64,000 nucleotides of DNA from Candidatus Hydrogenedentes bacterium ADurb.Bin170 (GTDB taxonomy: Bacteria > Hydrogenedentota > Hydrogenedentia > Hydrogenedentales > CAITNO01). The stretch lies in the NCBI GenBank assembly GCA_002070275.1, contig MWCY01000004.1, positions 1 through 64,000 on the forward strand. The letters run 5' to 3'. Of this stretch, positions 43,223-47,563 are shown piece after piece. A program made the position numbers and the translations under genes. Positions within the stretch are counted from its first letter, which is position 1; each line of letters opens with the position of its first letter. A model generated the notes under the pieces. It was given only the letters and a program-made list of their open reading frames with translations, did no database searches and was not told where the DNA came from.

Positions 43223-44524
43223 ATGAAAATAACTATTCTAGGCTGCGGATATCAGGGACTGGTTACAGGAACCTGCTTTGCTGAAAATGGACATTCGGTC
43301 GTTTGCCTTGACAAGAATCCGGCTGTAATCAATCAGTTGCAGGCGGGAAAACTCCCGATCCATGAACCGGGTCTGGAAGAGCTGATCATCCGAAATCTTG
43401 AAGAGGAGCGTTTGAGCTTTACAACAGATCTGTCGGCAGCGCTAGACGGCAGCCTCATGGTGTTTCTGTGTGTGGGCAGCCCTGCCGACCGGTTGGGGCA
43501 GGTGGACTTAAGCAATGTCCTGAGCGTTACCGAAGAGATTGCGAAAAAACGCACTGGTTATCAAATTATTGTCAACAAAAGCACCTGTCCTCCGGGCACA
43601 GCCAAAAAGATCGAAGAGATCTGGAAAATCAGACAGGCCGGGGACGTGGTGGTCAATCCTGATTTTATGAAAGAAGGCTCCGCTGTCGATGACTTCCTGC
43701 GCCCTGACCGCATTATTGTAGGATGCCGGGATGTCCGTGTTCAGGAAATGATGCGCGAACTGTACAGCCCTTTTTTGAGGACAGGCAAACCGTTTCTGGC
43801 AATGAGTCCGGAAAGCGCAGAGATGGCAAAATACGCAACCAACGCCATGCTGGCATCCCGCATCTCGCTCATGAACCAGCTGGCTGATTTATGCGAAGCA
43901 TACGACTGTGACATTGCGGACATACGGGAGGCGGTCGGTATGGACAGCCGCATCGGGCCTACTTTTCTTTTTCCCGGTATTGGCTTTGGCGGTTCAGGGC
44001 TTCCCCGCGATGTGGCGGTATGCGAACGACTCGCCCGGGAAGCGGGGCTGGAGCACGACTTACTGACCGCCATCAGCGCAGTAAACAACCGGCGGCGACA
44101 ACAATTTCTTGCAAAGATACTGGACTATTACGGCTCAAAAATAAGCAGCAAACGCCTTGCTCTTTGGGGTGTCAGTTTCAAGGCAAGAACTGATGATATC
44201 CGGGACGCACCTTCTCTGGATATTATTGAAGGATTGTGTGCCGCCGGTGCGGAAGTCGTCGTCTATGACCCGGTGGCGGGACAAAAAGTATCGGCGCGCT
44301 ACGGAAACCGCATTCAAATGGCGCCCAAGTATTACAGCGCCCTTGAAAATGCGGACGGCCTGGTTATTCTGACGGAATGGAACGAGTTCAGGCGCCCCGA
44401 TTATGCCCGCATGGCTTCGCTTCTGCGGGAGCCTGTTATCTTTGACGGGAGAAATCTGTACACGCCGGTCGTTATGCAAGAACATGGATTTAAATATTTC
44501 AGCATAGGCAGAAAATCCGTATAA
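43223..44524 (+). CDS. UDP-glucose/GDP-mannose dehydrogenase family protein lacking catalytic Cys
   Basis: This 433-residue protein has the three domains of UDP-sugar 6-dehydrogenases: NAD-binding Rossmann ('KITILGCGYQGLVTGTCFAE'), central helical domain and UDP-binding C-terminal domain. Retained are 'STCPPGT', 'EMAKYATNAMLASRISLMNQ' with the conserved Lys203 and Asn207, and Asp263. Two key positions differ. The catalytic-cysteine loop GGSCFPKD reads G-G-S-G-L-P-R-D, so Gly259 replaces Cys. The glutamate of NPEFLREG is Asp147 in 'NPDFMKEG'. Family enzymes oxidise C6 twice through a Cys thioester, so the normal reaction looks blocked. The next gene, an acyl-CoA synthetase, begins 233 nt later. 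Confidence 0.85.
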   Translation: MKITILGCGYQGLVTGTCFAENGHSVVCLDKNPAVINQLQAGKLPIHEPGLEELIIRNLEEERLSFTTDLSAALDGSLMVFLCVGSPADRLGQVDLSNVLSVTEEIAKKRTGYQIIVNKSTCPPGTAKKIEEIWKIRQAGDVVVNPDFMKEGSAVDDFLRPDRIIVGCRDVRVQEMMRELYSPFLRTGKPFLAMSPESAEMAKYATNAMLASRISLMNQLADLCEAYDCDIADIREAVGMDSRIGPTFLFPGIGFGGSGLPRDVAVCERLAREAGLEHDLLTAISAVNNRRRQQFLAKILDYYGSKISSKRLALWGVSFKARTDDIRDAPSLDIIEGLCAAGAEVVVYDPVAGQKVSARYGNRIQMAPKYYSALENADGLVILTEWNEFRRPDYARMASLLREPVIFDGRNLYTPVVMQEHGFKYFSIGRKSV

Positions 44525-44757: not shown

Positions 44758-46335
44758 ATGGCTGAAACTAAAAGATTTCTATGGCAGTGCGTCGAGCACT
44801 GGGCGTCTGTCAAGGGAGATGCAGAAGCCCTGGTGTTTGAAGACACGCGCCTCAGCTGGGCAGAGCTGGCCCGTCAAGTGGATCAGGCTGCCCGGGCATT
44901 TCTCGCTTTAGGAGTAGGTCGCGGCGACTGTGTGGCGTGTATTTCTTCTGCCCGCCCTGAATTTGTGATATCTTTTTTAGCCGCATCAAAAATCTCCGCC
45001 CTCTGGACAGGCATATCGCCCCGATATACCGTAGGAGAAATGGGCCGTATCCTCAGAGGATGCCGCCCGACTGTACTGATCACGCAGGAACGCTATCACA
45101 ACACAAACCTGCTTGAGCGGGCTTTTACCTTCAATTTCGAACTGGCAAGCATTGAGCACATTATCCTGATTGATGGAGAGCATGGCGATGCGCCGTCTTT
45201 TCATACAATCCTGAAAAAAGACTATTCAGATACTGCATCCCTTTATGAAGAACGTCTGGCTGCGGCCTCTCCTGGTGACAATGCGCTGCTTATGTACACT
45301 TCCGGTTCTTCCGGTAATCCTAAAGGCGTACTCCACACCCATTCAAGTGTCATCAGCAATGTTTCACAGCAGCACACACTGTACAACATTCATAAAAACA
45401 GCAGGATCCTGCTTCATTTTCCAATCAACCATGTGGCAGCTGATGTTGAAATCAGCTACTGTGCTCTTTTTGCAGGCGCCACAATAGTCATGCAGCCGGA
45501 CTTTAACGCAAAAGCAAGCCTGGAGATCATCGAAAAAGAAAATATCACGGTACTGGGACAGGTTCCGGCCATGTATATCCTGCAGTTACGGGAACCGTCC
45601 TTTCATTTAACCAGATGGGATTCTGTGGAAACCTTCGTCTGGGGCGGCTCCCCTGCTTCCAAAGAGATGCTGGAGGCGTTGCACCGCATCTGCAGCCGGA
45701 CAGGTGCCATTCTGGTGACCGGATACGGTTCCACAGAATTGTGCGGTTTTGTCACGGCGACGCAAAAAAAAGCGCCTTTCCCCGTTTCAGACCAGTCTAC
45801 CGGGCCTGTCTATCCTAATTGTGAATTACGGATAGTTGACGAGCAGCGCAACCCACTCCCGCCAGGTCAGATTGGCGAAATCGCTGTTCGCGGCCCTGTT
45901 GTTATGAAAGGGTATCTGAACGAGCCGATTCAGACAGCGGCAGTTCTCGATGCTGCGGGCTGGTACTATACCCATGATTTAGGCAGTCTTGATAAGGAAG
46001 GCAATCTGACGCTGCATGGGCGGCGCACCGACATGATTAAAACAGGCGGAGAAAATATTTTTCCATTTGAAATTGAGTTGACTCTGGAATCGCATCCGCA
46101 AATACTTTTCGCCGCCATTACCGCCGTGCCGGATGATGTATTCACCGAAGTGTGCCATGCCCATGTGATGACTGTTCCAGGATCAAAGTTAACGGAGATG
46201 CAGCTGCTCAGCTGGTGCCGGGATCATCTCGCCCACTTCAAAATTCCGCAGCGTGTCTTTTTTTACGCAACCTTGCCACTGCTCCCCAATGGCAAAGTGG
46301 ACAAGTTAAAACTTGTAGAAATAAACCCGCTCTAA
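44758..46335 (+). CDS. AMP-dependent acyl-CoA synthetase/ligase
   Basis: The 525-residue adenylate-forming enzyme would activate a carboxylic acid with ATP and transfer it to CoA. Motifs in order: phosphate loop 'TSGSSGNPKGVLHTHSS' (181-197), 'GYGSTE' (322-327), the ribose Asp in 'YYTHDLG' (Asp407), 'GRRTDMIKTGGENIFPFEIE' (421-440) and the catalytic lysine in 'NGKVDK' (Lys513). The pattern resembles long-chain or aryl acid-CoA ligases; the acid cannot be named. TAAGG lies 7 nt before the ATG. Neighbours give no clear pathway: an altered UDP-sugar dehydrogenase upstream and a run of exported proteins downstream. Confidence 0.93.
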   Translation: MAETKRFLWQCVEHWASVKGDAEALVFEDTRLSWAELARQVDQAARAFLALGVGRGDCVACISSARPEFVISFLAASKISALWTGISPRYTVGEMGRILRGCRPTVLITQERYHNTNLLERAFTFNFELASIEHIILIDGEHGDAPSFHTILKKDYSDTASLYEERLAAASPGDNALLMYTSGSSGNPKGVLHTHSSVISNVSQQHTLYNIHKNSRILLHFPINHVAADVEISYCALFAGATIVMQPDFNAKASLEIIEKENITVLGQVPAMYILQLREPSFHLTRWDSVETFVWGGSPASKEMLEALHRICSRTGAILVTGYGSTELCGFVTATQKKAPFPVSDQSTGPVYPNCELRIVDEQRNPLPPGQIGEIAVRGPVVMKGYLNEPIQTAAVLDAAGWYYTHDLGSLDKEGNLTLHGRRTDMIKTGGENIFPFEIELTLESHPQILFAAITAVPDDVFTEVCHAHVMTVPGSKLTEMQLLSWCRDHLAHFKIPQRVFFYATLPLLPNGKVDKLKLVEINPL

Positions 46336-46384
46336 AGATTTTTTTAAGGAAAAGGGACTGTTGATTCCCCATAAAGGAGATCTT

Positions 46385-47563
46385 ATGAAACGCCAAATGT
46401 TTTTGAGTCTTGTGTTCGTCTGTGCTGTCGCCTTATATGGTCATGCAGCCACTTTTCAGGAAGATGTGGATTTTCTGAAGCAATACCTGGATGTAATTGT
46501 ACTCAAAAGTCCGGACGGGCAGGCACAGGTTGCTGTGGTGCCCGCTTATCAGGGCCGGGTCATGACCAGTACGGCATCCGGTGCCAACGGCCCAAGTTTC
46601 GGCTGGATTAACAGAGAACTGATTGCATCAAAAAAATTTGAGCCCCATATCAATGCCTTCGGCGGAGAAGATCGTTTCTGGCTCGGTCCTGAAGGCGGGC
46701 AGTTCTCCATCTTCTTTGAAGCCGGTGCCCCTTTCGATCTTGAGCACTGGCAAACGCCACCTGTCATTGATACGGTTGCTTATGCGGTTGTCGAGCAAAG
46801 CGATTCAGAAGTGGCTTTTGAGCACCGCGCAACCATCACAAACCGTTCGGGCAGCTCCTTTGATGTAAAGATACGGCGTGTCATCCGTCTGGCGGAAAGC
46901 CTGACGGACGAGGCGCAAAGTGTTGCTTTTGAATCGGAAAACACCATCACCAATCTGGGAGATTCAGCGTGGAACGAAGAGACAGGGATGCTGTCCATCT
47001 GGATTCTTGGCATGTTCAGTCCCTCTCCGGACGCCACGATTGTCATTCCTTTCCGGGAAGGAAGTGACGAAGCTCTTGGCGCCAAGGTCAATGACAAATA
47101 TTTTGGCAAAGTGCCTGAAGATCGACTCGTCCAGAGAGACAACGTTCTGTTTTTCAGCGCAGATGGCACCATGCGGAGTAAAATCGGAATCAGCCCCAAG
47201 CGTGCAACGGAGTGGCTCGGCAGTTATGACAGCGGCTTGCAGGCGCTGACATTGGTTCAGTACACACTGCCGGGTGACACAGATAAATACGTAAACTCCA
47301 TGTGGGAACTTCAGGAAGAGCCCTTTTCGGGTGATGCCATCAATGCTTACAATGACGGTCCGCCTGCGCCGGGGAAAAAGCCGATGGGACCCTTTTATGA
47401 ATTGGAAAGTTCTTCTCCGGCCGCATCCCTGCAGCCGGGCGAGTCCCTGACTCATATACATCGCACACAGCACCTGATCGGACCGAAAGAGGCGCTCGAG
47501 CCTCTCGCTGTCAAATATCTGAGTGCAAAACTTGATGATATTTCCTCCGCACTGCCCCGATAA
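46385..47563 (+). CDS. Secreted DUF6786-like protein
   Basis: This 392-residue protein has a Sec signal peptide (about 1-20, 'GHAATF'). The mature part is beta-rich ('VVPAYQGRVMTSTASG', 'FWLGPEGGQFSIFFEAGAP', 'ESLTHIHRTQHLIG') and resembles the DUF6786 family, which has a fold like that of aldose-epimerase/galactose-mutarotase proteins. The role is unknown; a carbohydrate-linked function is inferred from fold and neighbours only. ATG 46385 has AAAGGAG 5 nt upstream; the frame extends to a TTG at 46361 that lacks a ribosome site. It is the first of three exported-protein genes in a row. Confidence 0.75.
   Translation: MKRQMFLSLVFVCAVALYGHAATFQEDVDFLKQYLDVIVLKSPDGQAQVAVVPAYQGRVMTSTASGANGPSFGWINRELIASKKFEPHINAFGGEDRFWLGPEGGQFSIFFEAGAPFDLEHWQTPPVIDTVAYAVVEQSDSEVAFEHRATITNRSGSSFDVKIRRVIRLAESLTDEAQSVAFESENTITNLGDSAWNEETGMLSIWILGMFSPSPDATIVIPFREGSDEALGAKVNDKYFGKVPEDRLVQRDNVLFFSADGTMRSKIGISPKRATEWLGSYDSGLQALTLVQYTLPGDTDKYVNSMWELQEEPFSGDAINAYNDGPPAPGKKPMGPFYELESSSPAASLQPGESLTHIHRTQHLIGPKEALEPLAVKYLSAKLDDISSALPR

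Follow-up and report, generated by a model that had tools for sequence, protein, structure and literature searches.

In UDP-glucose 6-dehydrogenase the first oxidation is begun by an Asp-bound water while a Lys stabilises the charge, and the aldehyde is then trapped by a Cys, giving a thioester that is subsequently hydrolysed (PMC3184952, PMC4794789). A survey of 229 members of the family recognised 18 invariant residues, among which are this Cys and a Glu (PMC4794789). Both positions have been changed in laboratory mutants (Cys276 to Ala or Ser, and Glu161, human numbering), and the Cys276Ala enzyme oxidised the aldehyde but was unable to go from UDP-glucose to the product (PMC3184952). Literature searches found no description of a Cys-less member of the UDP-sugar dehydrogenase family.

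The window, by which we mean the whole stretch of 64,000 nucleotides analysed here, belongs to a member of Candidatus Hydrogenedentota and contains, at 43223..44524 (+ strand), a gene encoding a Cys-free NDP-sugar dehydrogenase of 433 aa with the three domains of UDPG_MGDP_dh proteins.

A dehydrogenase with an altered active site

The window protein scored above the curated cut-offs of PF03721, PF00984 and PF03720 (UDPG/GDP-mannose dehydrogenase superfamily) and exceeded that of TIGR03026; with the TuaD equivalog NF047673 it reached 423.5 bits, below the curated cut-off of 700. Alignment with UDP-glucose dehydrogenases of solved structure, including the Burkholderia cepacia enzyme, covered its whole length. 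The likeness to the TuaD/BceC type (PDB 2y0c-2y0e from Burkholderia cepacia; TuaD from Bacillus) comprises the three-domain fold, the UDP contacts, the Rossmann motif and the Lys, Asn and Asp of the first oxidation. Unlike that type, the window protein has no catalytic Cys, has Asp in place of Glu, and carries Gln11 and Gln219.

The active-site loop reads GFGGSGLPRD, and the position of the catalytic Cys is taken by Gly259 (codon GGG, 43997..43999, + strand), so that the nucleophilic Cys of the canonical GGxC loop is missing here, as it is in all 34 orthologues described below. The Pro-Glu pair of canonical enzymes (SpUGDH 140-141) is replaced by Pro146-Asp147 within NPDFMKEG; Asp147 (codon GAT, 43661..43663, +) stands where the family has an invariant Glu (SpUGDH Glu141, human Glu161). 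SpUGDH Lys204, Asn208, Asp264 and Lys320 have their counterparts in Lys203 (the conserved catalytic Lys, 43829..43831, +), Asn207 (43841..43843, +), Asp263 (the conserved general base, human Asp280, 44009..44011, +) and Lys320. When the 18 invariant positions of the survey (PMC4794789) were transferred to the window protein by motif, 15 were retained and the changes fell on Glu141, Cys260 and Thr83 of the S. pyogenes enzyme, the last being a conservative replacement by Ser86. Moreover, the Rossmann motif is altered from GYVG to GYQG at position 11 (Gln11 of GxGYQG, 43253..43255, +; Val in the Cys-bearing relatives) and Gln219 (43877..43879, +) replaces a Glu of these relatives. A preliminary description of the window had pointed out the replacement of Cys by Gly259 in GGSGLPRD and of Glu by Asp147, together with the retention of Lys203, Asn207 and Asp263. 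Reading of the ORF confirmed all of these, the Gly being repeated in 14 of 14 relatives and the Asp in every one of the 34 Cys-free orthologues.

In an AlphaFold model built from 9 sequences the active-site region had a pLDDT below 50, and the model forms no part of the argument.

A single clade without the catalytic Cys

The 14 relatives from public genomes, all with Gly at 259 and Asp in NPDF, are without exception named Candidatus Hydrogenedentota, Hydrogenedentes or Hydrogenedens. Among 68 genomes of the phylum, drafts that are mostly metagenome-derived and in which pattern searches miss unusual codon contexts, nearly all encode one orthologue of the window protein (group 1, 52-85% identity). 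Some also have a second, canonical set (group 2, about 40-50% identity), which always keeps Cys and Glu. Within group 1 the Cys is absent from 34 of 34 orthologues in 34 genomes (Gly in 25, Trp in 4, His in 2, Tyr in 2 and Ser in 1), and all of them have exchanged Glu for Asp. This combination of NPDF with a residue other than Cys at 259 characterises families f1, f2, f3, f5, f7, f8, f9 and f10, and families f4 and f11 retain the GGSC loop and NPEF, with the exception of genome G044 (GGSALPRC).

A tree from which the active-site loop, the NPDF stretch, the STxPxG loop and positions 11 and 219 had been removed placed the 34 Cys-less proteins in a single clade within group 1 (bootstrap 99, SH-aLRT 95). 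The sister is formed by the Cys/Glu-bearing orthologues of the same phylum (GGSCLPKD, NPEF), which show about 53-61% identity to the window protein and, unlike it, retain both residues. Parsimony required one Glu/Asp change and two Cys/not-Cys changes, the second of which concerns G044 only. Since there is a single clade and so few changes, the loss of Cys must be old and residue 259 diversified afterwards. The Cys loss is thus an old, selectively maintained trait of many species in one little-known phylum and not an error.

The preliminary description had proposed a distinct subfamily, and asked whether homologues with Gly at this position group together; they fall, with the other Cys-free proteins, in the 34-member clade. 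The single change from Glu to Asp, the co-fixed Gln11 and Gln219, the changed neighbourhood (see below) and the purifying selection also uphold that proposal. The term paralogue was inexact, as in many genomes this is the sole enzyme of its type and the others are of the GGHC kind (WecC/WbpA-like).

Two other members of group 1 deserve mention. The orthologue of G044 (L093, 7583, - strand) represents a separate loss of Cys, with Arg at the position of Lys203 and Cys at that of Asp263, and makes a better candidate for a true pseudoenzyme. Family f5 (L097, L098, L101 and L091) has Trp at the catalytic Cys position and Ala at that of Asn207, a state kept in four species.

A DNA motif search for the Gly motif in about 318 sampled genomes outside the phylum gave zero matches, and matches to the NPDF pattern outside it (G323, G353) lay in unrelated frames. 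The match in contig 48 of G035 (L038) was a chance frame. The readable matches in viral contigs were also chance frames and a profile scan gave no relatives, which argues against a viral origin. Plasmid spread was likewise rejected, the top plasmid matches being ordinary Burkholderia-type enzymes with about 45% identity.

Within the clade Asp147 and Gln11 are found in 34 of 34 proteins and Gln219 in 33. Asp263 is equally constant (34/34), as are the UDP contacts Arg243, Lys320 and Arg410 (34/34 each); Lys203 occurs in 33 and Tyr10 in 32 of the 34. Positions 258, 259 and 86 drift, and so does Asn207, kept in the window protein and gone from most members with Trp, His, Tyr or Ser at 259. dN/dS was about 0.03 to 0.15 in the five pairs compared, Trp and His members among them, and dS approached saturation where the two sequences were more distant. 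Because Lys203, Asp263, Arg243, Lys320 and Arg410 are conserved and dN/dS is low, we consider that the protein is maintained. The fixed new state at 11 and 147 beside the conserved Lys and Asp points to a site that is altered but probably working, and not to decay.

Could another Cys have taken over? Cys83 and mostly Cys122 are common to the window protein and the Cys-bearing orthologues; Cys122 is present in 79% of the clade and in 92% of those relatives, and its role as replacement nucleophile is therefore unsupported. Cys267, one helical turn past Asp263, is found in 97% of the clade against 52% and 0% in the relatives.

Gene neighbourhood and supply of UDP-glucuronate

Across much of the Cys-free clade the dehydrogenase has as neighbour an AMP-dependent acyl-CoA synthetase-like ligase, located in the window at 44758..46335 (+ strand). 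Directly downstream of this ligase the window encodes a DUF6786 protein (46361-47563), which is conserved in the sister genome. A MaoC-type double-hotdog protein made up of FAS1_DH and MaoC domains is often paired with an AMP-ligase in the phylum, and the pair is followed in several families by a CgeB-like glycosyltransferase. The whole module can be seen at L158:9350-13757 and homologous loci, the MaoC/ligase pair being widespread in the phylum. Of the 26 Cys-free genomes with a MaoC gene, 24 carry it on one contig with the dehydrogenase, either directly downstream or one gene away (in some, a DASS-type transporter), and usually together with an AMP-ligase. In all 14 Cys-bearing genomes with both genes these are on different contigs (Fisher p 5e-9, in a test that ignores shared ancestry and contig breaks), and a UXS gene adjoins some of the Cys-bearing orthologues. 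This arrangement is not obligatory: the MaoC gene is absent from the window's genome and its sister, the genus keeping the ligase alone, and genus g2 keeps the dehydrogenase with neither.

A search for the canonical Cys-type Ugd loop pattern, which can miss unusual codon contexts, left 21 of the 34 Cys-free genomes without a match. An orthologue of UDP-glucuronate decarboxylase, close to human UXS1, is encoded in 18 of these 21; its motifs are intact in the species examined and it is under purifying selection in the window's genus. The other readable family members in 20 such genomes are all of the GGHC type, like WecC, WbpA and CalS8. This suggests that UDP-glucuronate is still made by something in the 18 genomes that keep the decarboxylase: either by the Cys-less enzyme or by a GGHC enzyme, unless the decarboxylase receives its substrate in some other way.

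The window's own genome does contain a short-type Ugd with Cys (GGYCLPKD) at L203:3045-4538, on contig C110 of 4840 bp, fused to an N-terminal HTH domain and adjoining an SDR epimerase-like gene. A Cys-motif search gave no match to it in the sister genome G013. It could be a recent acquisition or C110 could be a stray contig.

Possible activities of the Cys-free enzyme

The clade retains the residues of the first oxidation and those of the thioester part are absent. The two positions concerned are those of the Cys276 and Glu161 mutants (PMC3184952), but the combination seen here arose in nature, is fixed throughout a clade and comes with additional fixed changes. As the first part of the site is kept and the second is missing, and given the behaviour of Cys276Ala, we are inclined to think, with a probability of roughly 0.4, that the gene encodes an active UDP-sugar C6 oxidoreductase which does without the Cys and acts at the aldehyde level. 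What has been observed is the sequence, the clade, its conservation and the neighbourhood; activity, substrate, two-electron stop and pathway are what we infer. The enzyme would bind a UDP-hexose and NAD, and hydride would be moved at C6 by the residues of the first oxidation, Lys203 and Asp263, the latter together with a water. The thioester route (the Cys nucleophile and its Glu) would have been dismantled and the pocket rebuilt with Gly259, Asp147 and Gln11. The chemistry would most likely be two-electron and reversible, between the UDP-sugar alcohol and the 6-aldehyde or its hydrate, and the MaoC-type hydratase-like gene and the AMP-ligase that lie nearby in most of the clade would suggest that the product enters a pathway other than the ordinary supply of UDP-glucuronate. 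Against this reading, the 18 genomes with a decarboxylase and no match to the canonical motif suggest that something still makes UDP-glucuronate, and the neighbourhood is not obligatory, as the window's genome, its sister and genus g2 show. In addition, Asn207 is missing from most of the Trp, His, Tyr and Ser members, and the reaction may therefore differ within the clade.

The main rival to the aldehyde-level reading, ranked above a pseudoenzyme and then a different substrate, is full formation of UDP-glucuronate, possible although we think it doubtful. The aldehyde would hydrate in an enlarged pocket and a second NAD would oxidise the gem-diol. Histidinol dehydrogenase, a non-covalent four-electron dehydrogenase, offers a comparison for such a route. 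The retained decarboxylases and the GGHC character of the remaining enzymes speak for it, and so does the oxidation of the aldehyde by Cys276Ala, but the failure of that mutant to proceed from UDP-glucose does not, the CalS8-related GGHC-type enzyme might itself supply UDP-glucuronate, and Trp259 with Ala207 in family f5 leave little room for the mechanism. That a natural lineage carries out the full four-electron oxidation with no thioester, and that in many Hydrogenedentota the UDP-glucuronate for UDP-xylose synthesis comes from this enzyme alone, seems rather unlikely. The expectation of the preliminary description, that a protein without the Cys would go no further than the aldehyde, carry out a different step or have no activity, may not hold, given the Cys276Ala result and the kept decarboxylase.

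Inactivity is disfavoured by the fixed Lys203 and Asp263 and the low dN/dS. A non-catalytic protein binding UDP-sugar and NAD, with a regulatory or scaffold role, is unlikely to be what this gene encodes: family-invariant residues have been lost, and three positions and Asn207 drift as described, but Asp263 and Lys203 stay fixed even where Asn207 is gone, the entire UDP and NAD site is kept, and many genomes have no close Cys-bearing partner. Still less probable is that the enzyme, though NAD-linked, has a different substrate; it might then act, for example, on a UDP-sugar at some other carbon, or on a hydroxyacyl group that is linked to CoA/ACP and comes from the MaoC/ligase neighbours. The neighbourhood has indeed moved from sugar genes (UXS, in some Cys-bearing relatives) to the MaoC/AMP-ligase/glycosyltransferase module, but the UDP-contacting Arg243, Lys320 and Arg410 are universal in the clade and some lineages are entirely devoid of the MaoC/ligase module. 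A decaying pseudogene, or the sequencing or assembly error at 43997-43999 that the preliminary description had named among its refutations, would fit a draft assembly of 164 contigs but has a negligible chance of being correct, given the same substitutions in 14 relatives and 34 orthologues, the low dN/dS and a GGG codon differing at two positions from TGT and TGC, which no one-base error explains.

The Cys-free clade is a variant of a known family which either runs the reaction without Cys or uses the enzyme for something else. A stable natural clade in which both Cys and Glu are gone offers a ready-made test of whether the thioester route is indispensable; what it may bring to light is an enzyme of UDP-sugar aldehydes or a four-electron dehydrogenase that needs no Cys. 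The clade also advises caution, as not every member of the family should be annotated as UDP-glucose 6-dehydrogenase.
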